Shown: one piece after another, positions 3,285-36,823 of the stretch
Layout of the letters: each line of letters begins with the position of its first letter
Numbering within the stretch: position 1 is the first letter of the stretch
Position numbers and translations under genes: made by a program
IMG/VR virus record: IMGVR_UViG_3300033571_027679
Location: 1-37,782 of that record
Origin: a virus
Strand: one strand, 5' to 3'
Length of the DNA: 37,782 nt
Notes under the pieces: model-generated
What the model was told of the DNA's origin: nothing
Databases searched by the model: none
Seen by the model: the letters and a program-made list of their open reading frames with translations, nothing else

Positions 3285-3467
3285 TCACGAACTCTTGCGC
3301 TTTTTGGGCCTGAAGTCACCCTTGCGATATCTCTCGTTTTCCTTATCGGAGTTTAGCTGGCTGCAGGCTCCCTGAACGATGAAGTCCTTGTGTGGGCCGC
3401 AACCACCGATGTATGGGCCGGTGGCGGCCCCCTCACGCAGACGAAGCCAATCGGAAAATTTCTTCAT
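3285..3467 (-). CDS. Small protein with capsid-targeting-like N terminus (60 aa)
   Basis: A 60-residue basic protein that begins MKKFSDWLRLREGAATG. The start resembles the T4 capsid-targeting sequence (MKTYQEFIAE), and the LRE at residues 10-12 fits the [LI]xE site of the T4 prohead protease. After cleavage about 48 residues would remain, containing two Cys and ending in a Lys/Arg-rich tail (RPKKRKSS). This would suit a small DNA-associated internal head protein, like T4 IPI-IPIII. The ATG overlaps the stop of the upstream 147-residue gene as TGATG, and an AGAGG lies upstream. The role is inferred; no homolog is recognised. Confidence 0.65.
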   Translation of the reverse strand: MKKFSDWLRLREGAATGPYIGGCGPHKDFIVQGACSQLNSDKENERYRKGDFRPKKRKSS

Positions 3468-3910
3468 CACTTCAACCTCTTCAAAAATTTGGCTTTGTAC
3501 TTGTAGCCGTCGGGGTCGCATCCCTCCTCGATGCAGGATGGGTCGGGGAGAACCTCCCGCTCGACAATGACGAAATTAAGGCCCAGCCTCCGATACTGGA
3601 CGACACCTGAATCCTTGTCGATCCACTCGTAGCCATCGTGATCGTCTATGGTGACCTCATTTCCCCTGTCGACAACACGCTCCACCTGAACTTCTTCGGA
3701 CTCCACAAGCTCGTAGGATGGAAGACCGAACCGCAGGGGTGGCGGTTCAGGGAGGGCGTCCAGGCCAGCCAGCAGGCGACGCAGCAGCGAAGAGTGCTCG
3801 ACCGTCTCCTGAGTCACGCCCTTGCCGTTGGCCGTGCAAACCTTGACATACTCGGAAACCCTATCGCACACGAACTCAATCTGACTTGCGGACAGACTGT
3901 CTTGCTTCAT
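3467..3910 (-). CDS. Hypothetical acidic protein (147 aa)
   Basis: An unrecognised 147-residue protein. The N-terminal ~50 residues look helical (SASQIEFVCDRVSEYVKV, then HSSLLRRLLAGLD). The middle is acidic and Val/Glu-rich, and a central stretch DDHDGYEWIDKDSGVVQY suggests beta structure. No enzyme motif, signal peptide or membrane segment is visible. It sits between two genes with capsid-targeting-like starts and is coupled to the downstream one by TGATG. Its own start follows closely on the stop of the upstream proline/glycine-rich gene, with a GGAG inside that stop region. The three probably form one transcript for virion or head-associated proteins. Confidence 0.6.
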   Translation of the reverse strand: MKQDSLSASQIEFVCDRVSEYVKVCTANGKGVTQETVEHSSLLRRLLAGLDALPEPPPLRFGLPSYELVESEEVQVERVVDRGNEVTIDDHDGYEWIDKDSGVVQYRRLGLNFVIVEREVLPDPSCIEEGCDPDGYKYKAKFLKRLK

Positions 3911-3918
3911 GGGTCAGG

Positions 3919-4287
3919 TCACTCCACGCTCTGCTCGCCCTCTGGCTTTCCCTCTTGTTTGCCAGCATCGCTCTCGGGCTTTTCTTCCTCTTCTTTCGTC
4001 CCGAGCAGCTTGCCGAGAACGTCCCAGACATTGTACGCCTTCAGTTTTTTGCTTCCAGAGTTACCGCCGGGCGCACCAGGCATCGGAGGAGCGCCGCCCA
4101 TGCCGCCCCCGCCTCCGGGCATTGGCAAAGGAGGAGGAGCGCCGCCACCGCCACCGCCGGGTGGGGGAGGGGGAAGACCGCCGCCGGGAGGTCCGCCACC
4201 GCCGGGAGGACCGCCGGGCGGCGGCCCGCCGGGAGCATCTGCCTCGGACATAAGCCTAGAGGAAACAAAATTCATAAAGGTTTTCAT
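3919..4287 (-). CDS. Pro/Gly-rich protein with capsid-targeting-like N terminus
   Basis: About 122 residues, beginning MKTFMNFVSSRLMSEADAPG. The first residues match the capsid-targeting pattern seen elsewhere in the window, with MSE as a possible protease site. Residues ~18-70 are almost pure proline, glycine and alanine with a few methionines, in runs such as PPPPPGGGGGG and GGAPPMPGAPG. They look like the FH1 polyproline tracts of formins. The C-terminal ~50 residues return to normal composition (LKAYNVWDVLGKLLG) and end Glu/Lys-rich. An in-frame ATG at 4320 would add 11 residues and has an AGGGG upstream. I chose 4287 because it puts the targeting-like peptide at the N terminus. Probably a packaged virion protein; function unknown. 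Confidence 0.6.
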   Translation of the reverse strand: MKTFMNFVSSRLMSEADAPGGPPPGGPPGGGGPPGGGLPPPPPGGGGGGAPPPLPMPGGGGGMGGAPPMPGAPGGNSGSKKLKAYNVWDVLGKLLGTKEEEEKPESDAGKQEGKPEGEQSVE

Positions 4288-4292
4288 CGATG

Positions 4293-4300
4293 TATTTATG
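4293..4300 (-). promoter_or_regulatory. Late-promoter-like CATAAATA
   Basis: CATAAATA on the minus strand matches the T4 late promoter TATAAATA at seven of eight bases. It lies six bases before the ATG at 4287, giving an almost leaderless message if used, or it falls inside the gene if the start is 4320. The gene has virion-protein features, which fits late expression. Evidence is motif only. Confidence 0.35.
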
Positions 4301-4371
4301 TCAATAAACGGCAAATCCATTTGGGGTTGCCCCTGGCTGAAGGTGAATATAGTCTCTAGCTGGAGGAAATC

Positions 4372-5430
4372 ATGAACAACAAAGTTATGCTGTTTTCCGA
4401 TATACATGTGCATCCACACAAGAGGAGCCAGCAGAGGCTTGACGACTGCCTGAACGCCCTCGGGTGGGTTTTTGATAAGGCATCTGAGGCTGGCGTCAGG
4501 GACATACTGTTCGGAGGGGACCTGTTCCACGACAGACAAAAGATCGAGGTTTACACATACCAGAGGGTTTTCGAGGTCCTGTCCGACAAGCTATCGAGCG
4601 GCCATTTCCGCCTTGTGTTGCTGCTTGGAAACCATGACCTATGGTACAACGACAGGACTACGGTGAGCAGCGTCACGCCGCTATCTGCACTGCCTGGCGT
4701 CACAATCGTCTCCAAGCCAAGCAGGCTGTCCATAGCGGGCTCCAACTGGGACTTCATCCCTTTTACCCACAACCCCGTGGAGACTCTGGAAGAGCTGAAG
4801 GCTATGCCGGGCGAGCCGAAGTACGCCCTTGGTCACATCGCAGTCGATGGCGCCGTGCTGCACGGCACGCAGACCGCTGACGTTGCGATCGAGCATGACG
4901 GGGACATGGTTCGCATATCTCCGGCGCTTTTCTCCCACTACAGGCACACATTCCTCGGGCACTACCACGCAGAACAGCGTGTGAACTTGAAGGTCGAATA
5001 CATAGGGTCACCCCTCCAGCTAAGCTTCGGGGAGGCTTTCCAGCAGAAGCACATAATACTTTTCGATTGCGAAACCGGCGAGCGGGACTACATCGTCAAC
5101 GACTTCAGCCCAAAACACCTGATCATATCGCCGGACGAGCGTGAGAAGTATGACCTGAACGGCAACTTTGTCCAGTTGCGGGTAGACAGCATCAGCTCAA
5201 CCGATCTGGTGTCGGTCAGGCGTGAGATGCAGTCGAGCGCAGGCATGGCCAGTCTGGAGATTCGACAGCAGAAAAAGTTGATTGAGGAGCATGTAATATC
5301 AGACGCCAAAGCTCTATTGAGTCAGGGCGACGAGCTTCTGGCACGCTACGCCCATGAGGTCGGACACAACGGCCTGGATCTTGACAAACTTCTTTCGGTT
5401 GGAAGGGCAATCTGCCAGAAGACGGAGTGA
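4372..5430 (+). CDS. 47: gp47-like (SbcD/Mre11) recombination nuclease subunit
   Basis: Metallophosphoesterase subunit of the gp46-gp47 complex, the phage counterpart of Rad50-Mre11. It resects DNA ends so that recombination can start replication. The phosphoesterase motifs appear in order: FSDIHVHPH (residues ~8-16), GGDLFHDR (~48), GNHDLW (~85), GHIAVDGAV (~154) and GHYHAE (~197). These carry the two-metal ligands Asp, His, Asn and His. It has 352 residues, close to T4 gp47 (339) with normal C-terminal length. The start has a strong TGGAGGAAATC ribosome binding site. The stop overlaps the next start as GTGA, and gp46 follows after one inserted gene. Confidence 0.92.
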   Translation: MNNKVMLFSDIHVHPHKRSQQRLDDCLNALGWVFDKASEAGVRDILFGGDLFHDRQKIEVYTYQRVFEVLSDKLSSGHFRLVLLLGNHDLWYNDRTTVSSVTPLSALPGVTIVSKPSRLSIAGSNWDFIPFTHNPVETLEELKAMPGEPKYALGHIAVDGAVLHGTQTADVAIEHDGDMVRISPALFSHYRHTFLGHYHAEQRVNLKVEYIGSPLQLSFGEAFQQKHIILFDCETGERDYIVNDFSPKHLIISPDEREKYDLNGNFVQLRVDSISSTDLVSVRREMQSSAGMASLEIRQQKKLIEEHVISDAKALLSQGDELLARYAHEVGHNGLDLDKLLSVGRAICQKTE

Positions 5431-11081: not shown

Positions 11082-12737
11082 ATGTCCTGCAAATATATCA
11101 TCGTGGCCGGCGGCGTCTTCAGCGGGACCGGCAAGGGCGTGTCTGCCGCAAGCATAGGCCTTCTTCTCAAACTCAGGGGGCACAGGGTCGACCTTATAAA
11201 GTTCGACCCGTACCTGAACCGCAACGCCGGGATCCTTGCCCCCAGCCAGCATGGCGAGTGCTTTCTGTGCGACGACGGCACCGAGACCGATCTCGACCTC
11301 GGACACTACGAGCGCATCGCCGGCATAAACATGAGCAAGTTGAACATCTGCACCTCGGGCACGCTCCACAAGGAGCTTGACGAGGAACAGGAAGCTGGCA
11401 AGTACCTCGGCCAGACCATTCAAGTCGTTCCGCACCTGACAAACAAGATCATCGACAGGCTGACACAGATCGGCTGTGACAAGGACGTGGTGGTAGTAGA
11501 GATTGGCGGCACTATCGGAGACAGCGAGAGCGACTCGTTCTTCGAGGCCGTCAGGCAGTTCAAGCAGAAGCTTAAAGACGATGTCCTAGTGGTCATGGTC
11601 GCACCCATACTGTGGGTGCCGACCATCAAAGAGCTCAAAACCAAGCCGCTTCAGAATTCCGTAAAAGATTTGCAGAGCTACGGCCTTCAGCCCGACATGA
11701 TCTTCTGCCGCTGCGACAGGCAGATACCAGAAAAGGTGCTCAATAAGATTTCGCAGTTCACAAACGTGCGCCGTGAGTGCGTTATCGAGGCTCCTGACGT
11801 GAGCACCATCTACAAAGTGCCGCTGGAGTTCTATGACCGCCACGTTGACGACCTGTTCGTTGACCTTTTTCGGCTTGGCAGGAGCTCTTGCAGGATTCAC
11901 AAGTACCGGGACTTCGTCGAACGCTACGACAATCAGGATGTCGAGACCGTCACCGTCGGTATCATCGGCAAGTATGAGAACTGCGACGAGGCGTACATCT
12001 CCCTTAAGGAGGCGCTGACGCACGCCGCCGTTAGCCAGAACATCAAGATCGAGATCAAGTGGATCAACGCCGAGGATCTAGAGAAATACAAAGATAACCG
12101 TGGATTGCACAAGTACTTTGAAGATGTCGATGGGGTGATTGTGCCCGGCGGCTTCGATGCCCGTGGTGTCGAGGGCAAGATCAAGGCGATCCAGTACGTT
12201 CGTGAGAAGAGGATACCTTTTCTCGGCATATGCCTCGGCCTGCAGATGGCCGTGGTGGAGTTTGCAAGGAATGTCTGCGGCATGAACTCGGCGAACAGCC
12301 TTGAGTTCGACAGCACCACCGCACACCCTGTCGTCCACTTCGTGGAAGGGCAAAAGGAGCTCAAGACCAAGTCCGCAAACATGAGGCTGGGCTCCTACGA
12401 GTGCGAGCTCAGCAAGGACAGCCTCGCACACGAGCTTTACGGCGGAAAGGTCGTGTCAGAGAGGCACAGGCACAGGTATGAGGTAAATCCTGAATACATC
12501 GAGACTTACGCAAAGAAAGGCCTCAGGGTCAGCGGCGTCAGCACCGCAGCCAACGGCCAGCCTGGGCTCATCGAGATCATGGAGCTGGACAGGTCACACC
12601 ACCCTTACTTCATAGGCACGCAGGCCCACCCTGAGTTCAAGAGCCGTCTAATGGCCGCAGCCCCGCTGTTCAAGGGACTTATCTCGGCAGCCGTCGCCGA
12701 CAGGAAGATCAGCGAAACCAAGATGCACACGGCATAG
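11082..12737 (+). CDS. pyrG: CTP synthase
   Basis: Makes CTP from UTP, ATP and glutamine. The N-terminal synthase domain shows the loop GGVFSGTGKGVSAAS (residues ~10-24) and the family motifs KFDPYLN, QHGE and DGTETDLDLGHYER. The C-terminal glutaminase domain has the nucleophile motif FLGICLGLQMAV and the catalytic His-x-Glu in AHPEF. At 551 residues it is full length (E. coli 545) and all key residues appear intact. The ATG follows CGGGAGTTCGGG. Positioned after nrdB-nrdA, it probably raises the cytidine pool that ribonucleotide reductase draws on. CTP synthase is uncommon in phages and is seen mainly in large genomes. Confidence 0.95.
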   Translation: MSCKYIIVAGGVFSGTGKGVSAASIGLLLKLRGHRVDLIKFDPYLNRNAGILAPSQHGECFLCDDGTETDLDLGHYERIAGINMSKLNICTSGTLHKELDEEQEAGKYLGQTIQVVPHLTNKIIDRLTQIGCDKDVVVVEIGGTIGDSESDSFFEAVRQFKQKLKDDVLVVMVAPILWVPTIKELKTKPLQNSVKDLQSYGLQPDMIFCRCDRQIPEKVLNKISQFTNVRRECVIEAPDVSTIYKVPLEFYDRHVDDLFVDLFRLGRSSCRIHKYRDFVERYDNQDVETVTVGIIGKYENCDEAYISLKEALTHAAVSQNIKIEIKWINAEDLEKYKDNRGLHKYFEDVDGVIVPGGFDARGVEGKIKAIQYVREKRIPFLGICLGLQMAVVEFARNVCGMNSANSLEFDSTTAHPVVHFVEGQKELKTKSANMRLGSYECELSKDSLAHELYGGKVVSERHRHRYEVNPEYIETYAKKGLRVSGVSTAANGQPGLIEIMELDRSHHPYFIGTQAHPEFKSRLMAAAPLFKGLISAAVADRKISETKMHTA

Positions 12738-12744
12738 ATAACGC

Positions 12745-13320
12745 ATGAACTTCAAAGAGTTTCTCCTTAACGAGCAGCAGGCTTATCTCGGTCAGAAGGT
12801 CGGCGACATACTCACGGCCGTGCAGGAACTGCAGACTGACGCAGCCAACATGGGCACACGGGACCTCGTCCGATACACCCAGCAGATCATCAACCAGATA
12901 AGGCCGATCCTTCACAGCAGTTGGCCCCGTGAGGAGAAGAAGTTCCTGCTGGTGCTCCAGAAGGTCGGCTTCAGCCTAGCCAAGGCAATCGACGAGAAGG
13001 GCGACCTTGCAGGCAAAATATCCGGCTCGGCCAAGGTGCTCGAGAAGCTTGTCGCCGACCTTGGCGTGCCGATATCCAAGATGACTCCGACCGAGCCGTC
13101 CAAGCGTGGTGACAGCAAGGGCACGGACATGTCTGCGGGGGCTGAGGCGTCTGCGGCAAAAGTGCCGGCCGAAGATGGCCCTAAGTCTGCGAACGCAGCG
13201 GCACCAGAACAGCCCGGCAGCGTCGATGCAGTCCCGCAGGGAAGCCCGCCCACTCCGCCGGGCCAAGACATTTACGCACCCGGCCTCGGCGGCAGCAGCG
13301 GGCCTATGGACGCCTTCTGA
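12745..13320 (+). CDS. Virion-type protein with capsid-targeting-like N terminus (191 aa)
   Basis: Unrecognised protein that opens MNFKEFLLNEQQAYLG. Residues 1-10 match the T4 capsid-targeting sequence in length and pattern and end in LNE, a fit to the prohead protease site. Residues ~11-115 are helical with regular hydrophobic spacing. Residues ~115-191 are a low-complexity Ala/Pro/Gly/Ser tail, as seen in other packaged or scaffold-like phage proteins. It starts seven bases after the CTP synthase stop without a clear ribosome binding site, so it is likely translated by reinitiation. Its place among metabolic genes is odd for a virion component. Confidence 0.65.
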   Translation: MNFKEFLLNEQQAYLGQKVGDILTAVQELQTDAANMGTRDLVRYTQQIINQIRPILHSSWPREEKKFLLVLQKVGFSLAKAIDEKGDLAGKISGSAKVLEKLVADLGVPISKMTPTEPSKRGDSKGTDMSAGAEASAAKVPAEDGPKSANAAAPEQPGSVDAVPQGSPPTPPGQDIYAPGLGGSSGPMDAF

Positions 13321-14505: not shown

Positions 14506-15066
14506 ATGCACTCTTTTGAAGAATTCGATGATTTTGTCAATGACGACTTGACCAAACCAAGGAAAAAGCGCAAGAACGGAAAGCGCAAGGGAAACAGGAC
14601 GGAGCTTGACCTCACCAAGGTTCTGAACGCCAGGTTCGGCACGGGCTTCTCAAGGTCGGTGGGTTCAGGCAACAGGTGGAGCCAGGTGAGTCACCTGCCG
14701 AAGCACGCACGGGACGTGTTCTCCGGCGATCTGGTCGTCCCTGTGGGATTCAGGTTCGCAATAGAGAGCAAGGGTGGCTACGACGGGATTGACATCAACA
14801 GCCTATTTGTTCGTGGCAACAGCGAGCTAGACAGCTTCCTAAAGCAGGCTTTCGACGACGGTCGGAGGTGCGGCAGGATGCCGATGCTCTGCTGGAAGAG
14901 GACGAGGAAGCCTTGGCTGGCTTTCGTTCTCACCAAGGATCTTGGCGACCACGACTTCAAGTACACGATAAGGTATGGGGAATGGACCGGAGTGGCCCTC
15001 GAGCACCTTCTCAAGCTCAAGGACCATTTCTTCATCGACGCCTCAGTTGATAAGCCTTCCGCTTAG
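14506..15066 (+). CDS. PD-(D/E)XK-type nuclease, Holliday-junction-resolvase-like
   Basis: A 186-residue protein with a very basic N-terminal stretch (PRKKRKNGKRKGNR). A restriction-endonuclease-like core follows: E33, then SVGSGNRWSQ, then D75 in SGDLVVP and E87-S-K89 in FAIESKGGYD. The E...GD...ExK arrangement matches small archaeal-Hjc-like resolvases and related nucleases that cut branched DNA or DNA ends. T4 uses the unrelated gp49 for branch resolution, so this may replace it. The start MHSFEEFDDF faintly resembles the targeting peptides but has no [LI]xE site nearby. AAGGA precedes the ATG. The last 24 bases overlap the convergent next gene. Confidence 0.7.
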   Translation: MHSFEEFDDFVNDDLTKPRKKRKNGKRKGNRTELDLTKVLNARFGTGFSRSVGSGNRWSQVSHLPKHARDVFSGDLVVPVGFRFAIESKGGYDGIDINSLFVRGNSELDSFLKQAFDDGRRCGRMPMLCWKRTRKPWLAFVLTKDLGDHDFKYTIRYGEWTGVALEHLLKLKDHFFIDASVDKPSA

Positions 15067-15720
15067 CCTTTCCGCCTTCTCGTTGATTGGCGGAAGGATC
15101 AGGCCCACCTTGGCTGCGCCCTGTCGTGCGATGTTGCCGTCAAGCTGCTGGAATCCCTCGAACACGAACGGCACGTTCTGCTTCAGGATGTGCTGGCTGT
15201 ATGCCTGCGCAATCCGCCCGAGGGCAGCCCTTTTCCCGATGGGTGACTTGCCACCGTCGTTAAAGATCAGGTTCACGTCCTCGCCGTCAGAGACGATCAC
15301 GGCGTTCTGATCGAACATCCGCCCCATGTCGGAGATCATCTCCTCGAACTCGCCCTGGTCCATCCTCTGGGGGCGAGGCACGAAATATGACCTCTCGATT
15401 GTATCGACAAGCTTGTCTTGTGGGCACTCGTTGTACGGTATCTGCTCGCCATTCTCGTCCGTGGCGGTGCACTCACGCCAGTGCCCGATGAGCTGGTGCA
15501 CGCCCATCTGCTTGCTGTTCAGGACGGTGCGCAGCTCCCTGTTCTTCTGGATGTTCTCGGCCCTTGAGCGCTTCGATCCGTCTGAGTTGGTGGTCTTGTA
15601 AGCGGTGATTATGGCGAAAGGCATTTTCGCCAAGGACAACATCCTCGTGAGCGAGGCCTCGCAGAAGTCAACGTGTCCATGCTCGCTCGTCTCGCTGAGC
15701 CATTCCTGAAATGTCTTCAT
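15043..15720 (-). CDS. DUF3293-like protein with capsid-targeting-like N terminus
   Basis: The N terminus MKTFQEWLSE is nearly the T4 capsid-targeting sequence MKTYQEFIAE, with LSE at the expected cut point after residue 10. The body (residues ~30-190) resembles the DUF3293-type phage and bacterial family as I remember it. It has FAIITAYK, then ENIQKNRELRTVL, then GHWREC, SYFVPRPQ and FDQNAVIVSDG. The biochemical role of that family is unknown. The protein is 225 residues. The start has a strong GGAGGG. A 180-base structured leader with promoter-like elements lies upstream. Inferred to be packaged in the head. Confidence 0.6.
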   Translation of the reverse strand: MKTFQEWLSETSEHGHVDFCEASLTRMLSLAKMPFAIITAYKTTNSDGSKRSRAENIQKNRELRTVLNSKQMGVHQLIGHWRECTATDENGEQIPYNECPQDKLVDTIERSYFVPRPQRMDQGEFEEMISDMGRMFDQNAVIVSDGEDVNLIFNDGGKSPIGKRAALGRIAQAYSQHILKQNVPFVFEGFQQLDGNIARQGAAKVGLILPPINEKAERLSGRLIN

Positions 15721-15900: not shown

Positions 15901-17238
15901 TCACTCGAATTCGGCCAAGCTGTAAATGTTGCATCCAGGGTCTATGCAGCCCTTGCTGCCATCGGCCGTCAGGAACCAGTGCCACTTCTCGGGCTTGGAT
16001 GGTCGGATGTTGTCCCCATAGCCGTCCGTTATGACGAAAACCGCATCGGGGTGCTTGATTTTCTCCCTCTGCATCGTCTTGGAGACATGTTCCTCGATGA
16101 TCTTGAATGATGTGCCACCGCCGCCGTAAACCTTCTTGCTCTCCAGAGTCGTCTCCTGAACCATCGTGTCGAAGCAGAAGAGGCGCACTTGGAATCTATA
16201 CTCGGGCAGCGACTCGGCTGCCGTGAAGAACCTGTCTTTCAGATTCCAGCAAGATCCGCTGGTGTCCAAGAAGAACCACACCTTGATCTTGGTTGCCTCC
16301 CTGTCCTCAACCTCGACCTCTGCGTCCGTCGGCAGCATCATGTCCCTAGGGAGCATCGACATCCTGCGGTTGATCTTGATCCACTGCTCGACCTCCTTGT
16401 CGGTCGTCTTGAGATGCCGGATCGCCCACTTCTTGATGATGGTCTCCCATTTCTTCTTGCGCTTGCGTGGGCCCGTGGTGACAAAGCACCAACCGCCAGT
16501 GCCTGATCCGGCATGGGTTCCGCCGTCTTTCCCGTCCTTGGACTTATCGCCGTCTTTCTTGCGCTCCTCATCTTGGAAGTGCTTCTTAATCGTTGACTCG
16601 ATTGCCTTCTTCTCCTCCTCGGATAGGCTGCCGTTGAGCTCCTTGATCACCTTGCCCCAGTTTGAGTCTCCGTCGCCCAGGCCTTCGTGGCCATCGACGG
16701 TCTTGGGCATTCCCGGGCCTACAAGGTCGATGCTTATTGCGTCGAGCATGTTGAAGTAATGCTCGAAAGTCTCGTCTTCGCTTGGCTTCTGGGTGCGATC
16801 CTTGAAAACGGTGTCTATCCAGCAGTAGTTCTCGCTGTTGTCGATCTTGTCCCTCTCGAAGCCGAAGCTTCTTACGAGCGTGTGGTTGACGACAATGTCC
16901 ATGGCGACATTGGCTGCAGCGGAGTTTACCCCTGCGTCCCTTGACCTGGCGCCGTGGTTCAGAACGACGTGCATCGCCTCGTGGCATATCACGAAGAGCT
17001 TGTTGTACAGGTCTAGCGTTGACCAGAAGCCTGGGTTGAACCGGAACCAGATGAACTTGCCCTCGTTGTCGAACTGCACGCATGCGGTCGGTATGGAGTC
17101 GTCAAAGACCGGCTTGCCCATCTCCCACACCTTGTAGAAGACGGCATGGTGCGGCTCGAGGGCACGGCTGATCTCGAACCACTCCTCGTTCGTGATCCTA
17201 GCGTTGGTCTTGCTGCAGTACGCAACGTCTTCGCTCAT
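15901..17238 (-). CDS. DUF2201-type VWA/metallopeptidase-like protein, MoxR partner
   Basis: A 445-residue protein. The N-terminal part carries a zinc-peptidase-like site: HEAMH (H86, E87, H90), with NVAMDIVVNH (D114) as a possible third ligand. A Lys/Asp/Gly-rich linker spans residues ~235-265. The C-terminal VWA-like domain has the MIDAS motif DTSGS near residue 325 and GGGGTS and ITDGYGD downstream. This is the layout of the DUF2201 family, which in bacteria is paired with MoxR AAA+ ATPases and thought to help fold or activate other proteins with metal cofactors. Its ATG lies just after the ATPase stop, with GGGGGAG inside that gene's 3' end, so the two are co-translated. Confidence 0.85.
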   Translation of the reverse strand: MSEDVAYCSKTNARITNEEWFEISRALEPHHAVFYKVWEMGKPVFDDSIPTACVQFDNEGKFIWFRFNPGFWSTLDLYNKLFVICHEAMHVVLNHGARSRDAGVNSAAANVAMDIVVNHTLVRSFGFERDKIDNSENYCWIDTVFKDRTQKPSEDETFEHYFNMLDAISIDLVGPGMPKTVDGHEGLGDGDSNWGKVIKELNGSLSEEEKKAIESTIKKHFQDEERKKDGDKSKDGKDGGTHAGSGTGGWCFVTTGPRKRKKKWETIIKKWAIRHLKTTDKEVEQWIKINRRMSMLPRDMMLPTDAEVEVEDREATKIKVWFFLDTSGSCWNLKDRFFTAAESLPEYRFQVRLFCFDTMVQETTLESKKVYGGGGTSFKIIEEHVSKTMQREKIKHPDAVFVITDGYGDNIRPSKPEKWHWFLTADGSKGCIDPGCNIYSLAEFE

Positions 17239-17239
17239 G

Positions 17240-30268: not shown

Positions 30269-30515
30269 GCGTGAGTTCTATGTCGCCGGAGAGATGGTTG
30301 CGTCATTCCGCAAGCCTGTTCTGCCGAGGAGGCTGCTGACGAAAGTCAGCAAGCCTCTCCTCTACGACCGCAAGACTACTTTTGAGGTGGAGCTTGCTGC
30401 TGTTGCTGCTGCGGCTGGGCTGGCTGCTGTCCCTGTTGCGGGGCGGGCTGCTGACCCTGCTGTTGACCCTGTTGTTGACCCTGTTGGGGCTGCTGCTGAG
30501 GGGCTCCCGGCTTAG
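30234..30515 (+). CDS. Small basic protein, antisense overlap with neighbour (93 aa)
   Basis: A 93-residue frame beginning MKAFRIQKPKNKREFYVAGE. GGAGGT sits five bases before the ATG, one of the best ribosome binding sites in the window. The first ~55 residues have normal composition. From residue ~48 on, the frame runs opposite the Gln/Pro-rich gene on the minus strand for 140 bases and becomes Ala/Val/Pro-rich, as expected from that antisense sequence. The N-terminal part probably is real; the tail may be a passive consequence of the overlap. Function unknown. Confidence 0.5.
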   Translation: MKAFRIQKPKNKREFYVAGEMVASFRKPVLPRRLLTKVSKPLLYDRKTTFEVELAAVAAAAGLAAVPVAGRAADPAVDPVVDPVGAAAEGLPA

Positions 30516-30792
30516 GTTTCTCCATGTTCGCCAGAAGGTCTGTGAACGTCTTCTTCATTTTCGGGTCTGCGACCTTAGCTGCGTTTGCCTTGAGCGTGTC
30601 CATGATCGCTTGGGTTGCCTTGTCCGGTATGGGCGGAGACGTGCCCTGTCCTGCCTGCGCAGTGTTGGCGGGCTTGGCCTGCTGCTGAGGCTGCTGGGCC
30701 TGGTTCTGGGCCGCCGGCTGCTGGTTCTGGCCGGCAGGCGCCGGCGCCTGCTCCCTGAGCATCTTCTGGTAGAACTCGTAGAATGACTTCAT
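30376..30792 (-). CDS. Gln/Pro-rich protein with capsid-targeting-like N terminus (138 aa)
   Basis: Starts MKSFYEFYQKMLREQAPAP. The opening fits the capsid-targeting pattern, with LRE at residues 12-14 as the protease site. The next ~35 residues are Gln/Ala/Pro-rich. A short helical block follows (KATQAIMDTLKANAAKVAD, then FTDLLANME), and the last ~50 residues are Gln/Pro repeats of the GQQQGQQ type. It is probably a packaged internal protein or a scaffold-like component with mostly unfolded sequence. GAGGTGAG precedes the ATG, within the end of the upstream gene. Confidence 0.65.
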   Translation of the reverse strand: MKSFYEFYQKMLREQAPAPAGQNQQPAAQNQAQQPQQQAKPANTAQAGQGTSPPIPDKATQAIMDTLKANAAKVADPKMKKTFTDLLANMEKPKPGAPQQQPQQGQQQGQQQGQQPAPQQGQQPAQPQQQQQQAPPQK

Positions 30793-30800
30793 GACTCACC

Positions 30801-31343
30801 TCAAACGATTTTGATTTTCAAATCCGGCTCTTTCTGCGTGACCTTGCCGTCTCCCGTGACGACATCCTCTTGGAACCTTTGACATATCAGCTCGATCCTC
30901 AGGGCGCCCCACATCTTGAACTCGCCCAGATTCCTTTGCACTATCACCCAGTTTTCCCTGAGGTGCGGCGTGAAAAGCCTCGAGCCTATTTTTGGTGGGT
31001 GGCCGACCGCCTTGAGCACCGACCTGTAGTTCAGCTCGAACTTCATCTCGTCAGGGGCGTCGATGCCGAACTGGTTCACTAGGTTCTGCGACGGTATTGG
31101 GTCGTAGGTGCACCATAGCTGGACAGGGTTGTTCGAGAAAAGCTTGTTCCGAGCCTCAAGGTAAATCGGGTCGATCATGTTCTGGGTGATGATGACCTCG
31201 TAATAGTATATTGGCGACCCGCCCCTTCTGATGGCCTCCTCATCCCATAAGTTGAAGAGGTCGTGGGTGCGGTCCAGAGGGTCGTACATCTGGATGCTGC
31301 CACGCAGCTTGTACGGCGTTCCATCGCAGTTCTTGAGGGTCAT
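30801..31343 (-). CDS. Conserved virion protein, likely neck/tail (180 aa)
   Basis: A 180-residue protein. The opening MTLKNCDGTPYKLRG resembles the N terminus of the 222-residue protein encoded at 32992 (MALKNKDGSVYRLSG). The body has YYYEVIITQNMIDPIYLEAR, then WCTYDPIPSQN, then HPPKIGSRLFTPHLRENW and VIVQRNLGEFKMWGALRI. I recall a similar order in T4-like cyanophage structural proteins near the neck genes; the T4 counterpart is unclear. It is co-directional with the two targeting-peptide genes around it, starting two bases after the upstream stop. Confidence 0.6.
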   Translation of the reverse strand: MTLKNCDGTPYKLRGSIQMYDPLDRTHDLFNLWDEEAIRRGGSPIYYYEVIITQNMIDPIYLEARNKLFSNNPVQLWCTYDPIPSQNLVNQFGIDAPDEMKFELNYRSVLKAVGHPPKIGSRLFTPHLRENWVIVQRNLGEFKMWGALRIELICQRFQEDVVTGDGKVTQKEPDLKIKIV

Positions 31344-31345
31344 TC

Positions 31346-32377
31346 TTAATCCTCGTCTTCTTCTTCTGCAACTGCGCTTGAGAACTTGCGCAAGTTGTAT
31401 ATGTCACCCATCGATTGCAGTACTGACAGGGTCGCTTTGGGAATCTCCTTCATGGCCTGCCTCACACGGTTCTCTGTGACCTGGAAGCCGAGCGGGAAGC
31501 TCCCGTCCGGCAGAGCCTTGTACTTTTCTATGACCATCGTGCTCGGGACGTCCTCGCCAATCAGGTCGTCCTGAACCATCTTGATTGCAAGGGTGAAGTT
31601 CTGCTTTTGGTTCTCCTTGGTCGCCTTGGCACGGCTTTTGGTCAGAGCCTCTATGATCTTCTTCTGGAGCTCGCTCAGGCGCATCCCGCTGCTCGGGTCG
31701 TCGATCACGCCCGGCTCACGCATCATGGTTCTGCTCGAGCCGTCTGACTTCTGCGCCATCTGGCTGACGGGTATGGCGGACCTCGGTATGTCCCTGTGCC
31801 CGTGTGCGACTATGAACTCCGACTTCTCCCTGAATGACGGCTTTCGTCCCCCGGCCGTGAGCACAGCGTACGCATCTTTGGCCTTGTCTTGATCTGGGAA
31901 TCCGGAGAAGTCGTTCTTGTTGCTAAGCTGATTCCATATTGACTCAACCCACCTGCCGCCAGATTTACGCCTGATGTCGACGAGCTTGTTCTTGATCGCC
32001 TGACCGATCACGCCGAGCACGGCCCTCTCGTATTCGGATTCATCGGGGATGGTCGCCTTGAACCTGGCAAAGCTGTCGACAAGCGAGCTGGGCTGCTTGT
32101 GCAGGTCAAACATGATCTCGCTCGTGATCGTCGTCACTGCGTCATCGAGGTCAAGTCCGGCTGCGACGCCCGACGACATGGTGCGCCGAACTAGGTTCGT
32201 TATCATGCCCTTGTAGTCGTGGTCGAACCCGGTTTTCGTCTTTATGAACTGGTTTACGTCCGTCGGCAGGTCGGAACCCACAGCTTCGCTCAGGATGCGC
32301 TCGGCGGGCAGGTAAACCTCCCGGTAAAACCTGCGCCATTCGCTCTTGAAAAGCCAATCCGAGAAATTGCTTATCAT
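31346..32377 (-). CDS. Sigma-factor-like protein with capsid-targeting-like N terminus
   Basis: A 343-residue protein beginning MISNFSDWLFKSEWRRF, with ERILSE at residues ~26-31 as a possible prohead protease site. Residues ~60-145 look like sigma70 region 2: LVRRTMSSG, GLDLDDAVTTITSEIMFDL, then a helix AVLGVIGQAIKNKLVDIRRK like the ECF pattern of a helix ending in ID-x-RR. Near the C terminus, QVTENRVRQAMKEIPKATL recalls a region-4 helix-turn-helix. If the peptide sends it into the head, it could be injected with DNA and act on host polymerase early. The sigma similarity is my reading of the pattern and is not proven. GAGGTGACC precedes the ATG at 32377. Confidence 0.6.
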   Translation of the reverse strand: MISNFSDWLFKSEWRRFYREVYLPAERILSEAVGSDLPTDVNQFIKTKTGFDHDYKGMITNLVRRTMSSGVAAGLDLDDAVTTITSEIMFDLHKQPSSLVDSFARFKATIPDESEYERAVLGVIGQAIKNKLVDIRRKSGGRWVESIWNQLSNKNDFSGFPDQDKAKDAYAVLTAGGRKPSFREKSEFIVAHGHRDIPRSAIPVSQMAQKSDGSSRTMMREPGVIDDPSSGMRLSELQKKIIEALTKSRAKATKENQKQNFTLAIKMVQDDLIGEDVPSTMVIEKYKALPDGSFPLGFQVTENRVRQAMKEIPKATLSVLQSMGDIYNLRKFSSAVAEEEDED

Positions 32378-32423
32378 GGTCACCTCGATGGTGTATCTAC
32401 ATAAGTCGTTTGTGTTTTTCAAA

Positions 32424-32455
32424 AGAAATGGGCCCGTGAAAAATCACGGGCCCAT
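32424..32455 (-). terminator. Strong terminator after the 140-residue virion gene
   Basis: A perfect 12-base stem at 32428-32439 and 32444-32455 (core GGGCCCGTGA with TCACGGGCCC) has a four-base loop. Reading the minus strand, TTTCTTTTG follows it. It ends the transcript of the gene at 32471 and separates it from the sigma-like gene downstream. The region 32378-32470 holds no gene. Confidence 0.88.
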
Positions 32456-32470
32456 CCAGTCGTCTTCTTG

Positions 32471-32893
32471 TTAGTCGAGCGTAAGTTGTGGGACTATCTC
32501 GATCTCGCCACCACCTGCTGGTAGGGTGAACGGAGCCGTGGAGAATCTCTCCACCCACAGAAGGTCAGATGTGACACTCGTCATGAAGTAGCCGTAGCAG
32601 GTAACCGCTGTGGTGAAAGTGAATGTCTGTGCGCTGTAGGTTGCGACGTTCGTGCCTGCCGTGTTAGTGCCAACCGTCCAGCTTGGGCCGGTCAGCGTGA
32701 TAGCGGCGTAGCCGGCCTGAGTGGCCTCGGTCACGTCAGTGTATGCAGTGGCCTTCGTCGGCGTCAGGTTGTTGGTGTAGAGGTGCAGTATTTTGTTGTA
32801 TCCGGAGTCTGTCGCCCCGCCGTCGCCTCTGATGAAGCCGACTATGAACTTAAGGAACAGAACGTCCGCTGTGTTTGGAACTACTAGAGCCAT
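32471..32893 (-). CDS. Small beta-rich virion protein (140 aa)
   Basis: A 140-residue protein starting MALVVPNTADVLFLKFIVG. It continues with HLYTNNLTPTKATAYTD, then AGYAAITLTGPSWTVG and ATYSAQTFTFTTAVTCYGYF, and ends in GGGEIEIVPQLTLD. The Thr/Ala/Gly-rich beta pattern with LYxNNxTP and YGYFxT is common in small structural proteins of uncultured tailed phages, where it may decorate capsid or tail. AAGGGAGAAC precedes the ATG at 32893, so the longer frame from 32956 is not used. It is a single-gene transcript between a promoter-like CTATATAAAA and a strong terminator, suggesting high expression. Confidence 0.65.
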   Translation of the reverse strand: MALVVPNTADVLFLKFIVGFIRGDGGATDSGYNKILHLYTNNLTPTKATAYTDVTEATQAGYAAITLTGPSWTVGTNTAGTNVATYSAQTFTFTTAVTCYGYFMTSVTSDLLWVERFSTAPFTLPAGGGEIEIVPQLTLD

Positions 32894-32931
32894 GTTCTCC
32901 CTTAGCCTTGTATTCGGCGACGTAAGGTCGA

Positions 32932-32942
32932 TTTTATATAGA
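32932..32942 (-). promoter_or_regulatory. AT-rich promoter-like CTATATAAAA (minus strand)
   Basis: TCTATATAAAA lies ~40 bases upstream of the ATG at 32893, in the right place for a late promoter of the small virion gene. It fits the TATAWA core but not all of NATAWATA. It is back to back with a plus-strand motif 25 bases away. Confidence 0.4.
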
Positions 32943-32964
32943 ACAATTTTTTCCAAAATTGGCC

Positions 32965-32972
32965 GATAAATA
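32965..32972 (+). promoter_or_regulatory. Late-promoter-like GATAAATA
   Basis: GATAAATA differs from the T4 late element TATAAATA at one base and lies 20 bases before the ATG at 32992, with GAGGTG in between. Distance and strand fit a late promoter for the 222-residue gene. This is the clearest late-type site in the window. Confidence 0.55.
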
Positions 32973-32991
32973 ATGCCTGAGGTGCGTCAAC

Positions 32992-33660
32992 ATGGCTCTC
33001 AAGAACAAAGACGGTTCCGTTTACAGGCTCTCCGGCCCAAATCCAGCTATGAAGACCCAGGCGACATGGGGCTCCTTCACTCTACACAACATGAAATGGT
33101 CATCCGAAAGATTCTCCAATCTTTCAGGCCAGATGCCGGAGGTTGAGAATCAGCGCTCCGAGCCCCAGCCGGTTGAGGTGGCAGACGACTTCGTAAACGA
33201 GCTGGAGAAGACCAAGTCGTCAATAAGAATTGTCGTGCCGGAGAAGTCCAAAAAGGCCAAGCTTGAAGACAGTGCGACCGATGACGACGCTCCGTTGGTC
33301 GAGAGGAAGGTCGAGGTTCACGAGGACAGCCGAGCTGACGAGCCGGCCTCTCCTGAGATAGACAAGGTTTTCATACACTGCCTGCCGGCTAAGGTAAGCA
33401 CCAAGAGGGATAGCCTGTACGGCGACGTATACAAGACCGTCAGGTACGAGGACCCCTTCTCTTTCGAGGGGGTCATCATATCCGAGAGCGACCTTGGGCT
33501 TGAGGTTTGGACTGACGCCGACATCAAGCGTGACTCTGTCCTGTACCCGAAGATCAACAGCAAGAGGTGGTGGAAGGTGCAGTCCTCAGAGCCCAAGGCT
33601 ATGGGCAGGCTTCTGACCTGCATGCCGAGCGACTACCAGCCTTCTTTCAAGCAGGACTAG
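32992..33660 (+). CDS. Conserved T4-like hypothetical protein (222 aa)
   Basis: A 222-residue protein opening MALKNKDGSVYRLSGPNP, followed by MKTQATWGSFTLHNMKW. The middle (~45-120) is charged and Ser/Glu/Pro/Val-rich. The C-terminal ~100 residues look folded: KVFIHCLPAKVSTKRDSLYG, then YEDPFSFEGVIISESDLGLE and INSKRWWKVQSSEPKAMGRL. Proteins with this N-terminal LKNKDGxxYxLxxPNP pattern occur near neck genes in T4-like phages as I recall, without a known role. The stop shares CTAG with the convergent 90-residue gene. Confidence 0.65.
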   Translation: MALKNKDGSVYRLSGPNPAMKTQATWGSFTLHNMKWSSERFSNLSGQMPEVENQRSEPQPVEVADDFVNELEKTKSSIRIVVPEKSKKAKLEDSATDDDAPLVERKVEVHEDSRADEPASPEIDKVFIHCLPAKVSTKRDSLYGDVYKTVRYEDPFSFEGVIISESDLGLEVWTDADIKRDSVLYPKINSKRWWKVQSSEPKAMGRLLTCMPSDYQPSFKQD

Positions 33661-33929
33661 CCGTTCTGCTGGGAAGGCACTATGCGTGCCGTGACTCCGA
33701 GCTTCTTGAGCTGATCTGCGTGATCCGAGACGCTCTTCATGTAGCCGGCCTCATAGGTGTCCGTGACCATTTTGAAGAACGCTTGAACGTCACCCTCGGT
33801 GACCAGCATCTGGCTCAGCCTGTCTATGATTGGCTCGTTCGGTTGGTATCTCTCCTTCAGAACCTCGAACAGAGCCTTCTTGACATAGTGCGACTTTGTG
33901 TTGCTGAGGTAGTCAAGCCATCCAGCCAT
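33657..33929 (-). CDS. Small helical protein after the giant internal protein (90 aa)
   Basis: An unrecognised 90-residue helical protein (MAGWLDYLSNTKSHYVKKAL, then YEAGYMKSVSDHADQLKKLG). The start overlaps the stop of the 964-residue gene as TAATG, so they are co-translated. The stop lies in a CTAG shared with the convergent gene. It may be a partner or chaperone of the large protein, judged by coupling only. Confidence 0.6.
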   Translation of the reverse strand: MAGWLDYLSNTKSHYVKKALFEVLKERYQPNEPIIDRLSQMLVTEGDVQAFFKMVTDTYEAGYMKSVSDHADQLKKLGVTARIVPSQQNG

Positions 33930-36823
33930 TACTGTATCCCCCTGTCACGCATCGAGGACTCAAGCGTTTCAATTGCACGCTTGTAGTCGTCCTCGGAGTA
34001 TGACTCCTTGTTGTCCACGAGAAACTTCTTTAGCTTGCGAAGGGCGGTTGGTATCGCCACACGGTGGTAGTTCTTGTTCATGGCGAGTTGGAAGTTTGCC
34101 TGGGGAGTCTGCTCACGACGCAGTTGCTGCCACGGCGTGGCCGTGACGGTGAGATTCCTAGGCTGCCCGGGCCTTGTCGCCGGAGCCGTCCTGATCTGCA
34201 TCTTCTTGTTGATGGCGTCCTGCGTCGCACGCAGGATTTTGGCCAGGTCTTGCTGCACGTCGGAAGCTGTGTTCCGAAGCCACCTAAACTCCGACTGGAG
34301 CTTCTGCTTGACGTCCGACAGGACAAAACGGCTCATGCCGCCGGCTGCTGGGGCGTATTTGGTCTTCATCTGCTCGTCTTGGTCGTTACCGCCGAGACGG
34401 CGAAGATCCTCATCGTAGCTCTGGTCGGCATACATCTTGGCGTAGTCTGTCTCGTCATCGATTCTTGCGTCAGAGGACAGCTCCAGCTTGCCGGTCTGGC
34501 CTGCAGCCTTGAGCTGTGACATGGCCTGAACCACCAGCGGATGACGCTGAAGGCTGGCAACCATCTTCTCGCTCTTCATGCCTGCCTCTATCCAGCTCTC
34601 GACTTGGTCGTCCGCAAACTGTCTTGCCTTCTCGGGGCTGAAGTCGGAATCCTTGGCGTGGACGTAGGTGTACAAAGCTTGCAGTATGTCGGCTGACTGC
34701 TCGGCGATCTGCTTCTTCTCGCTGACGATCCTCATGAGCTGCGCTGCGACATCGGGGCCAAGGTCAACACGGCTCTTGGACAGGGCGTCGACGCTCTGCT
34801 GGTCGGCCTCGTGGGCACGACGCCTTAGGACGGAGATTTCCTCTACCATCTTGCGGTAGTTGTGGAGCTTCCTGTCCTGCCCGTGCTCCAAAGGCCTTGC
34901 CTGTATGCTTGCGAACATCTCACGTGCTTGGTCGGTGAATGCCCTCAGCCTCCTGCTGCCGCCGCCCCAGTTCTTCTGCGCATAAAGGGATGTCTTGCTC
35001 TTGACGTAATCCTTCCTCGATCCCTTCTCGAGCAGGTCCTTGTTGTCGATGTCGAGCAGGATCGTCTGGTAGATGATCTGATGTATCTCAGGGACGCTCT
35101 GCAGCATCAGCGTGCTCTCGAACTCCGTGTTTCCGCCGCATCTGCCGCTCTCAACGCAGTCGAGGATTCCTCCAACGATGTCGTCGTACAATCCGGAGCC
35201 CTGCTCGGAGCTGAGGTTGTAGCCACGGCCTTCCTCGCCAGTCCTCGGGGCCACCCTGTATCCAACCTCCTGCTGGTCGCCGAAGATTTCGCCGTACTTC
35301 TTCTTGAAGCCCGGCGTGTGCTTCACCATGTGCTTGATGCTCTCGGTCCCGTAGTTCAGGTGAATCGACCCCTTGCCCTGCACGGACTTGCCGTACTGCT
35401 CGTTGCCGTCAACCTTGATGAAGTCCTTGGAGAAACCACGGAGCTTGTCCTCGGGATGAATGAGCACCTTGCGGGTCTTCTCTCGCCCGAACTCATCCTT
35501 GTACTTCTCGACCTTATAGTCGCTGGAGTTAAGCTTCCTGTAGAGGTGCGATGAGTTAACGACAGGAATCCATGACTCCTTCTCGACCACCCTATCGCCC
35601 TGCTTGACCTGAACCTTCTCCTTGCGGTAAGGGAGGAAAAGTGGCGGGTTCTTGATCTTTCCCCTTGCGTCGATGGTTGCGGAACGCTTCTCGTCGGGAA
35701 CTCCGGGGACGGGAGGCCCAAACAGCTTCTTGTTCCTCGCCATCTTCAGTAGCTGGGCCTCTGTTCGTCGCTTGGCTTCGGCACGCAGCTTCGGTTCAGT
35801 ATCGAGCCTCTCGGCCATGCGGCCGTCAGTCCTCCTCGCCTTGCGCAGCTTACTCATGATCCTCGCCAGTATCTTCGTCCTGTGCCATCCGACCGTGTGG
35901 GTGTCTTCCATCCCTGAAGGCATCCACTTGATGTCCGATCCGGCTGGCAGGTCGCCGAACATGCTGTGCGAGTTGAGCACAAGGAAAGACTTTAGCCTCT
36001 CGTGAAGGTTGTTGAGTTTCGGGAACCTGAGCCCCGATGTGCTGTCGCCGAAAACGCTCTCCTGATCAGGGTTGTTCGGGTCGAAGTCTATGGCCTCGAT
36101 CGGATTGCTCATGTCGAAGCCATACTCGCCCTGACCGGAGAGGCCGCTATCGGCGTGGTGCTCTATGCCTCCTGTCTGCTCCAGCTTGTGGTAGAACCTG
36201 TTGAGGAAGGGCTTGGCCATGATCGTTATAAGCTGCCTCGACCTGTTGCCACGCCTCTTGTCGGTCTCGGGGTCGTAGCTCGTGTCACGGAACGTGAACT
36301 CCTCGGGGTCGTTGCCTCCTGGCAGGTGGATGTTCTTGGCCTTGATGTGGTCGTGTGCGACCTTTTCTGCTATGTCGAGAATCTCCCTGTTTGGCAGCGG
36401 CCTGTCGCCGTGAGTCACGGAAGCAGGGTAGTCGCTGCGGAGCTCCTCGATCTTCCTCCTCGAAATCCTTGCTCCCTCTTCCAGCTTTCGCAGCTTGTGC
36501 CAAGCCTCGTCGGTCTGAGTTCTCAGCGCCTCGTATATCGCCTGCTTGAGCTGCTCGAAACCCAAGGTTATCTTGATCTCGTGCATCTTCTTGAGTCTCT
36601 CGAATAGCTTGCGGTAGCGCACATGCATAGCTTGGCCCCAGTACTCGTGGGGGAACTGCCGCAGGAACTCGATGTCGTCTGAGTCGATGTGCACAGCCTT
36701 TCTTGGCTTGTCCTTGTACTCGGCCATCTCGTTGAGAATGCCGAACTGCCTCTTGGCGAACAGCCTCACGGCGCCGTCCGCTAGGAGGTTCGAGTATAGG
36801 AACTCCCTGAAGTTAGTGATCAT
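33929..36823 (-). CDS. Giant protein with capsid-targeting-like N terminus (964 aa)
   Basis: The longest gene in the window, not recognised. It starts MITNFREFLYSN, matching the targeting-peptide set, with GILNE at residues ~28-32 as a possible protease site. The sequence is highly charged and mostly helical. A beta-containing middle (~380-480) contains PPLFLPYRKEKVQVKQGDRV. A coiled-coil-like block (~640-720) and a disordered stretch near 870-900 follow. No enzymatic motif is obvious. T4 packages the large ADP-ribosyltransferase Alt with a similar N-terminal signal; this may be a functional analogue with a different activity. AAGGTG precedes the ATG at 36823. It is divergent to gp13. Confidence 0.65.
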   Translation of the reverse strand: MITNFREFLYSNLLADGAVRLFAKRQFGILNEMAEYKDKPRKAVHIDSDDIEFLRQFPHEYWGQAMHVRYRKLFERLKKMHEIKITLGFEQLKQAIYEALRTQTDEAWHKLRKLEEGARISRRKIEELRSDYPASVTHGDRPLPNREILDIAEKVAHDHIKAKNIHLPGGNDPEEFTFRDTSYDPETDKRRGNRSRQLITIMAKPFLNRFYHKLEQTGGIEHHADSGLSGQGEYGFDMSNPIEAIDFDPNNPDQESVFGDSTSGLRFPKLNNLHERLKSFLVLNSHSMFGDLPAGSDIKWMPSGMEDTHTVGWHRTKILARIMSKLRKARRTDGRMAERLDTEPKLRAEAKRRTEAQLLKMARNKKLFGPPVPGVPDEKRSATIDARGKIKNPPLFLPYRKEKVQVKQGDRVVEKESWIPVVNSSHLYRKLNSSDYKVEKYKDEFGREKTRKVLIHPEDKLRGFSKDFIKVDGNEQYGKSVQGKGSIHLNYGTESIKHMVKHTPGFKKKYGEIFGDQQEVGYRVAPRTGEEGRGYNLSSEQGSGLYDDIVGGILDCVESGRCGGNTEFESTLMLQSVPEIHQIIYQTILLDIDNKDLLEKGSRKDYVKSKTSLYAQKNWGGGSRRLRAFTDQAREMFASIQARPLEHGQDRKLHNYRKMVEEISVLRRRAHEADQQSVDALSKSRVDLGPDVAAQLMRIVSEKKQIAEQSADILQALYTYVHAKDSDFSPEKARQFADDQVESWIEAGMKSEKMVASLQRHPLVVQAMSQLKAAGQTGKLELSSDARIDDETDYAKMYADQSYDEDLRRLGGNDQDEQMKTKYAPAAGGMSRFVLSDVKQKLQSEFRWLRNTASDVQQDLAKILRATQDAINKKMQIRTAPATRPGQPRNLTVTATPWQQLRREQTPQANFQLAMNKNYHRVAIPTALRKLKKFLVDNKESYSEDDYKRAIETLESSMRDRGIQ

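Follow-up and report, generated by a model that had tools for sequence, protein, structure and literature searches.

A shared N terminus, probably of the T4 capsid-targeting type, on unrelated proteins of uncultivated T4-type phages

Seven genes in a 37,782-nucleotide (nt) stretch of virus DNA (IMG/VR virus record IMGVR_UViG_3300033571_027679, here called the window and labelled G000), a fragment of an uncultivated T4-type phage, encode proteins with unrelated bodies and a common N-terminal pattern. With a probability of about 0.86, we regard this N terminus as a T4-type capsid-targeting sequence (CTS) on an enlarged set of cargo proteins. The evidence is a tag specific for gene starts, an enriched cleavage site behind it, the unrelated bodies, an association with late promoters and a prohead protease in relatives, all read directly from sequence. 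The internal proteins of T-even phages are described as having only a leader in common, as being injected and as blocking type IV restriction enzymes (PMC12373910, PMC9391042, PMC3012670, PMC9026906), and the block is reported for T4's three internal proteins (PMC12373910). From the analogy with T4, we infer that the proteins bind the core, are packaged, cleaved and ejected, and act against the host: an N terminus of the form M-x-x-F-x-E-[WF]-[LI]-x-E would dock its protein on the assembling prohead core, the docked protein would be enclosed in the prohead, a gp21-type prohead protease (family S77) would cut after the Glu of a hydrophobic-x-Glu site to free the mature body, and this body would be packed with the DNA and then ejected into the host at infection. 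A first-pass annotation of this DNA had already proposed a T4-type sorting tag on unrelated cargos, and the proposal is supported by the recovery of T4's internal proteins, the enrichment of [LI]xE, the conserved junction of tag and body, and the S77 protease of relatives. The seven starts that it named belong to real genes, of 60, 122, 191, 225, 138, 343 and 964 amino acids (aa), which carry the peptides that it had read; the scores in bits come from the profile described below.

3285-3467, minus strand: tagged 60-aa protein, 16.4 bits; tag MKKFSDWLRLRE, 12 residues, 3432-3467; predicted cut after LRE, ending at residue 12
3919-4287, minus strand: tagged Pro/Gly-rich 122-aa protein, 12.3 bits; tag MKTFMNFVSSRLMSE, 15 residues, 4243-4287; variant site MSE, ending at residue 15
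12745-13320, plus strand: tagged 191-aa protein, 19.3 bits; tag MNFKEFLLNE, 10 residues, 12745-12774; LNE ending at residue 10
15043-15720, minus strand: tagged S-AdoMet-lyase/DUF3293-like protein, 225 aa, 15.7 bits; tag MKTFQEWLSE, 10 residues, 15691-15720; LSE ending at residue 10
30376-30792, minus strand: tagged Gln/Pro-rich 138-aa protein, 12.9 bits; tag MKSFYEFYQKMLRE, 14 residues, 30751-30792; LRE ending at residue 14
31346-32377, minus strand: tagged 343-aa all-helical protein, 12.3 bits; propeptide to LSE, residue 31 (32285-32377)
33929-36823, minus strand: tagged 964-aa protein, 16.7 bits; propeptide MITNFREFL...GILNE, 32 residues (36728-36823), ending in LNE, then MA and the conserved body

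The 43 genes of the window were curated by hand and the window was scored on this set, whereas a simple gene caller of our own, which undercalls the window (27 genes against 43), was used for relatives. The strict pattern ^M.{0,2}[KTSN]F.[ENDKQ][WF][LVYIFMC], a slight widening of the first-pass pattern written after the window had been viewed, matches 7 of the 862 window ATGs that are followed by 12 open codons in any of the six frames. The matches coincide with the seven gene starts, which sets 7 of 43 curated genes against none of 819 other ATGs (Fisher p 4.7e-10, for a motif defined on the same window). Because this p value rests on a motif defined after seeing the window, relatives serve as the independent test. 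They were gathered from IMG/VR via sheath and tube proteins, which yielded 20 large records; 13 contigs of 76 to 533 kilobases (kb) were studied, with G011, G013, G014, G016, G017, G018 and G020 left out, and as these contigs are kin to one another, counts across them are not independent. They may belong to the uncultivated Far-T4 phages (PMC4360716). Here, the strict motif occurs at 65 of 2888 called N termini compared with 4 of 13,233 internal methionines (p 6e-44), and a minimal pattern of an aromatic residue at position 4, an aromatic at 7, an aliphatic at 8 and Glu at 10 occurs at 16 and 2 of them, respectively. When alternative ATG starts are allowed, 96 proteins are tagged, including the seven of the window, and 12 of the 13 relatives have some; in G010, no tagged protein was found by the strict motif even with such starts.

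The first-pass annotation had proposed a profile search of N termini in this phage and its relatives. Our nine-column profile contains no T4 sequence and was trained in a leave-one-genome-out manner, without the contig being scored. At a threshold of 10 bits it recovers 120 of 2886 N termini in relatives against 12 of 12,717 internal methionines (2.7 expected), and at 5 bits 202 of 2886 (7%), where 17 are expected (false discovery rate 8.5%); the number per contig at 5 bits ranges from 6 (G010) to 30 (G008) and lies between 21 and 30 in each of five relatives with contigs above 200 kb. Scored without the window in training, the seven tagged genes reach 12.3 to 19.3 bits, and all others of the 43 stay at or below 3.3 bits. 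The gene at 14506-15066, which begins MHSFEEFDDF, was considered as an eighth tagged gene and rejected, as it scores 1.5 bits and encodes a PDDEXK/RusA-like nuclease. The consensus of 132 tagged proteins is MxxFxxWL, with only two scattered prolines beyond it; an apparent preference for F and W over Y was dropped, since the pattern itself required F and [WF].

Applied to T4, the profile ranks gene 61.1 (17.7 bits), ipIII and ipII (7.6 bits each) and ipI (6.9 bits) as the top four of 228 called genes, followed by e.7 with 5.9 bits. The strength of this recovery lies in the ranks and not in the bit scores. Gene 61.1 (NC_000866, 18966-19130; our L396) is annotated as hypothetical, lies next to 61.2 and encodes 54 aa beginning MKTFKEFIKE, and its sequence makes gp61.1 a candidate that may be an unrecognised internal protein of T4. 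In other cultured phages, scores of at least 10 bits were reached by 5 of 171 called genes of P-SSM2 (160 of 252 kb examined), 2 of 160 in Syn9 and 1 of 282 in SP-15, and by none of 237 in phiM12 and none of 177 in HTVC008M; P-SSM2 has five genes at this level in the part examined, Syn9, phiM12 and HTVC008M few or none. At 5 bits, the background in phiM12, Syn9, HTVC008M and SP-15 together is 12 of 856 genes, or 1.4%.

Behind the tag, the site expected for a gp21-type protease is enriched. In T4, gp21 is reported to cut after L/I-x-E, CTS propeptides have 10-19 residues, and in the IPIII tag residues 4 and 7, both aromatic, serve targeting, whereas residues 8 and 10 serve processing (PMC9026906). 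The counterparts of these key positions in MKTFQEWLSE are F4, W7, L8 and E10, and the spacing of this peptide is the same as in T4 IPII and IPIII. As the first-pass annotation had counted, and as the translations confirm, [LI]xE follows the tag in six of the seven window genes and MSE in one, and two of the peptides are exactly ten residues long; two of the seven predicted propeptides (31 and 32 residues) are longer than those of the T4 type. Among the 96 tagged proteins, the commonest distance from the second aromatic residue to the Glu of the first [LIMF]xE is 3 (19 proteins), as in T4, with 11 at a distance of 4 and 14 at 5. An [LI]xE ending at residues 10-20 is present in 39 of 92 tagged proteins compared with 402 of 2698 untagged ones (p 5e-10), and shuffling residues 8-35 within the tagged proteins left such a site in 11.5 of them on average and in 22 at most, compared with the 39 observed. 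No enrichment behind the tag was found for LxD, LxQ or LxK when tagged and untagged proteins of relatives were compared.

Five ortholog sets preserve the junction between tag and body. Ten readable N termini of the 964-aa family (the window and nine relatives; six further rows lack a readable N terminus) have a hydrophobic-x-E directly before MA and the conserved body, namely LNE, MQE, IDE, LDE, LAE, FSE, LDE, FNE, FLE and FLE, and the length between tag and site varies. The family of the gene at 12745 has [LIMF]xE at the tag end in all 13 orthologs, 12 of which are flagged as tagged (the G009 copy has an uncertain start). All ten orthologs of the 3919-4287 protein, of which our script flags nine as tagged, show hydrophobic-x-E where the low-complexity body begins, five further rows having been set aside as low-complexity cross-hits. 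For the 31346-32377 gene, an alignment of seven proteins (A1), in which no other member exceeds 26% identity to the window protein, places [LI]xE at an invariant Glu (E31). Both orthologs found of the 60-aa protein (G001 92783 and G006 78785) carry the tag, and for the 30376-30792 family a looser pattern flags 18 of 20 distinct ortholog rows, one of which (L073) is probably a cross-hit. In the structural model of the 964-aa protein, residues 1-40 have a predicted local distance difference test (pLDDT) score below 50 despite drawn helices, and the body beyond is more confident; such a low-confidence N terminus is compatible with a removable leader without demonstrating it.

The prohead protease has to be sought in relatives. 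Alongside a T4-type tail sheath, identified by tblastn against phage tail sheaths, the window encodes a head-tail adaptor and a gp15-like stabiliser of the sheath, together with genes that we presume, from inspection of their translations, to be gp19-like, gp46/47-like, ribonucleotide-reductase-like and CTP-synthase-like; neither head-shell genes nor a gp21-like protease were found in this 37.8-kb fragment. The first-pass annotation had named the absence of a gp21-like protease from the genome as refuting its proposal, a condition that cannot be applied to a fragment in which no head-shell genes were found and that fails in relatives: S77 is present in all eight of the 13 studied contigs that have a gp23-type capsid gene. 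All 20 relative records were checked for S77: PF03420 matches 11 of them at E 0.001 and 10 at the curated cut-off, three of these ten (G012, G013 and G014) looking like near-copies, and it matches all six cultured comparators above the cut-off. In G001, G002, G003, G005 and G015, neither S77 above the cut-off nor a gp23 match (phmmer, E 1e-3) was found, and these contigs therefore probably lack the head region. In the five contigs whose gene order was listed, the gene of a long protein comes first, followed by S77, the gene of a gp22-position protein of about 300 aa, and gp23; in G006, our caller missed S77 itself and placed one more gene after it, ahead of the gp22-position gene. At the position aligned with LTE65 of T4 gp23, its cutting site, the capsid proteins of relatives have MNE (five), INE (two) or FNE (one). 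At P3, the protease of this lineage may thus tolerate M and F, and the MSE site of the 4287 gene would then be a reasonable one.

The bodies behind the tag are diverse. The 96 tagged bodies group into 76 clusters, none of which holds two bodies from a single contig. Third-position GC content of the tag tracks that of the gene body (r 0.74), so that it is the peptide that is conserved, and the tag is kept where bodies have diverged to about 20-30% identity. For Pfam and PHROGs tallies, 132 of the 177 tagged proteins (strict, or at least 8 bits) were used, leaving out 30 below 80 aa, six that cross slice borders and nine by hand. The tagged proteins of relatives are mostly without a known family: at E 0.001, Pfam assigns 31 families to the 132 proteins, each to at most two of them. 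The bodies behind the tag have a slightly basic composition (+0.025 per residue, against -0.011), and the largest cargos have 964 aa (window) and 1208 aa (G015). Tagged cargos with a family match in relatives include the following.

G007: DUF3293 (Pfam, 2.5e-17)
G007, second protein: S-AdoMet_lyase (0.0016, under the cut-off)
G002, and G005 in L318: NUDIX
G008, 262132-262686 (L279:2132-2686): Acb1-like / 2'-5' RNA ligase (Acb1 3e-9, over the cut-off)
G007 and G008: papain-like peptidase C39/C70
G002: DUF6036 nucleotidyltransferase
G004: DnaJ
G009: ParB_N
G005: GP88

The Acb1-like protein, for which the general 2_5_RNA_ligase2 family scores better than Acb1, is a candidate for a preloaded enzyme against cyclic-oligonucleotide-based antiphage signalling (CBASS). 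The L286 and L306 proteins and the one at G005 59117 had appeared ADP-ribosyltransferase-like by eye only, and this assignment was rejected; for the first two, Pfam gave no match at E 0.01.

In the window, the body of the 15043-15720 protein had been called DUF3293-like, and it does match DUF3293 (5.4e-4) but lies closer to S-AdoMet_lyase (PF23780, 4.7e-6, 27.0 bits), a match that is itself under the curated cut-off of 28. The two tagged G007 proteins match the same S-AdoMet lyase/DUF3293 group, one of them under the cut-off. The head tag is absent from L401 and L402, homologs of the window protein with different, untagged N termini (L401 aligns from CEASL onward); judged by these sequences, the tag behaves as a module. 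In a phage collection, the window protein had one weak match (E 0.1), and single-sequence searches of IMG/VR gave 21 peptide-pattern stretches for it and two for the 964-aa protein, none of them confirmed. No family match of weight was found for the 191-aa and 964-aa proteins, no fold match at E 0.001 in PDB or BFVD for the 964-aa model, nothing convincing in PDB sequence searches with alignments A1, A2 and A4, one weak match with PADLOC for eight proteins, and only weak matches under the cut-offs with NCBIfam for the eight.

The next gene downstream of the 31346-32377 gene is well conserved, with 87-92% identity to its 14 best matches. The conserved neighbour is matched by 83 subject sequences, for which 21 distinct upstream frames were listed; four looked wrong and were dropped, and at least two of those kept (L036 and L066) are doubtful. 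Of the 21 listed relatives, 17 hold a plausible frame, of 171 to 1090 aa, and all 17 are flagged by a loose tag pattern, which marks the locus, by its sequences, as a fast-evolving cargo slot upstream of a conserved gene. The earlier label "sigma-like" is only suggestive for this protein: its model (mean pLDDT 65) resembles sigma region 2, and many top rows of Foldseek and VIA-align are sigma factors; the best Foldseek match, sigma32, has a non-significant E of 0.14, VIA-align gives Z 6.6 to sigma28 over 78 residues, below the tool's safe level, and no Pfam sigma match was found at E 0.1. An assignment as a sigma factor was therefore rejected.

Many tagged genes are also preceded by a late-promoter-like box. 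The T4 late box TATAAATA occupies positions -13 to -6 (PMC1524935), and the hexamer TANATA was modelled on its end. It ends 3-8 nt before the ATG in 40 of 96 tagged genes compared with 148 of 2419 untagged ATG genes (p 8e-22), and in relatives (G001-G019) the distance of the late box peaks sharply at 4-5 nt before the ATG. In the window, the box precedes two tagged genes and the untagged gene at 1228.

4293-4300, minus strand: octamer CATAAATA, resembling a late promoter, 5 nt ahead of the ATG of the 3919-4287 gene
12733-12740, plus strand: octamer CATAGATA, resembling a late promoter, 4 nt ahead of the ATG at 12745

The five other tagged window genes have no late-promoter-like box within 8 nt of the ATG. 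With T4 geometry, the transcript start (+1) would be placed on the ATG, and a peak of the box 4-5 nt before it would imply leaderless late mRNAs; by their sequences, a large minority of tagged genes would be late and apparently leaderless in expression.

Several observations weigh against a T4-type CTS. The scores of T4 ipI-III are modest (6.9-7.6 bits), and 7 of 882 internal T4 methionines also reach 5 bits. MKTYQEFIAE, which the first-pass annotation had placed on Alt, is the start of T4 ipII and ipIII, and the 682-aa T4 frame at 123454-125502, which we take to be Alt, begins MELITELFDE and scores -10.9 bits. Since Alt is packaged in T4 (PMC9026906) without the motif, the motif is not necessary for packaging. 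Cleavage as modelled is not universal: in 23 of 96 tagged proteins, the 44 residues that follow the second aromatic contain no [LIMF]xE, and an [LI]xE ending at residues 10-40 is present in only 50 of 92. Finally, the window yielded no protease, an S77 match at E 0.001 is missing from 9 of the 20 relative records, and G005 has one only under the cut-off (4e-4).

Among the other explanations, we consider it unlikely that the tag docks proteins to another part of the virion or its assembly, such as the tail lumen, the neck or a membrane site, with the Glu motif being incidental. Several tagged genes (30376-36823) do sit among neck and tail genes, but in the window the tail genes for gp18, gp15 and the gp19-like protein lack the tag, the profile singles out T4's three internal head proteins, and the Glu site is specifically enriched at the boundary of tag and body. 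There is little to recommend a leader that has merely been copied by duplication or recombination and has no sorting role: T-even internal proteins are reported to lie in hot spots of changing anti-defence genes with only the leader in common (PMC12373910), and small tandem tagged-looking genes exist in relatives, yet the 96 bodies form 76 clusters with none alike within a contig, the tag persists at about 20-30% body identity, and its third-position GC content follows the gene.

An origin of the pattern in translation or transcription signals of the 5' end, for example constraints of leaderless mRNAs, could draw on the hexamer found 3-8 nt before the ATG in 40 of 96 tagged genes, but five of the seven window genes encode the same peptide with no box within 8 nt, and codon choice follows genome GC, which leaves this origin improbable in the extreme. 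Chance amphipathic N termini do occur, as the 1.4% background at 5 bits in four other phages illustrates, but as an explanation chance is the least credible of all, given 202 of 2886 (7%) in relatives where 17 are expected and 7 of 43 window genes; these counts exclude chance as the source of the whole set, but not of every individual low-scoring match.

The T4-type CTS reading therefore remains the preferred one, and the closest known system is that of T4 IPI-III and gp21 (S77), with likeness in the N-terminal pattern, the spacing, the L/I-x-E site, the unrelated bodies and the presence of S77 in the lineage. What is new is the enlarged, partly enzymatic cargo set and the promoter arrangement. 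T4 is described with three CTS internal proteins plus Alt (PMC9026906), and Silas et al. report at least 10 internal proteins in T-evens (PMC12373910), whereas the relatives studied here have 6-30 tagged N termini per contig at 5 bits; unlike in T4, cargos reach 964 aa (1208 in G015), include enzymes, and have late boxes placed for leaderless mRNAs. Giant phages of the phiKZ type are similar in their large sets of injected head proteins, some of which are described as cut after Glu by a gp21-related protease (PMC5694885, PMC13282480). They differ in that several propeptides of SPN3US, a phage of this type, exceed 100 residues and are cut at A-x-E, and a common N terminus is described there only for the paralogs gp53 and gp54 (PMC5694885); the phages described here, by contrast, are of the T4 type and have gp15 and gp18, with gp23 in relatives. 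A full-text literature search, whose scope did not extend to bioRxiv preprints and most subscription journals, found no paper that describes the tag at such a scale outside T-evens.

More tentatively, and at somewhat less than even odds, environmental T4-type giant phages may possess a general head-delivery system with a portable label, in which some 10-30 kinds of preloaded effectors would be carried per virion, many of them made from leaderless late messages, and in which the tag would predict injected proteins, gp61.1 included. The family matches suggest that such effectors would comprise counter-defence enzymes (the Acb1-like 2H phosphoesterase and S-AdoMet-lyase-like proteins), papain-like proteases, Nudix proteins, nucleotidyltransferases and DNA-binding proteins, and perhaps a sigma-like factor in the conserved hypervariable slot. 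If this is true, candidate injected proteins can be listed for any T4-type genome with the nine-column profile. Injected proteins are the first phage proteins that a host meets, and the tag would offer a way to find those preloaded against hosts; a 2026 review gives Tad1 as so far the sole anti-defence protein described in jumbo phages (PMC13282480).

The spread of the tag is illustrated by an IMG/VR scan for the exact DNA form of MK[S/T-type]FxEWLxE, which found 44 stretches. Counting all 44 as tags was rejected, because some, for example L300 and L315, look by eye like unrelated MKTFDEWFEEN proteins; L293, L309 and L323 each hold two tagged frames, and about a dozen of the stretches have, again by eye, a late box just upstream. 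As to the neighbourhood of the tagged window genes, the CTP-synthase-like gene (11082-12737, named by inspection) lies directly upstream of the one at 12745 and near the ribonucleotide-reductase-like genes, and adjoining VWA-domain-like and MoxR-type AAA ATPase-like genes, likewise named by inspection, occupy 15901-18871. Small tagged-looking proteins of the form MKTF.QWAE...KRAGIA.WAYPD.Y.RSHYPD, often in tandem, were seen by eye in at least 10 of the 13 relatives (for example G006 40698-41230, G007 386410-386943 and G008 198299-198810) and are possibly a conserved head protein.

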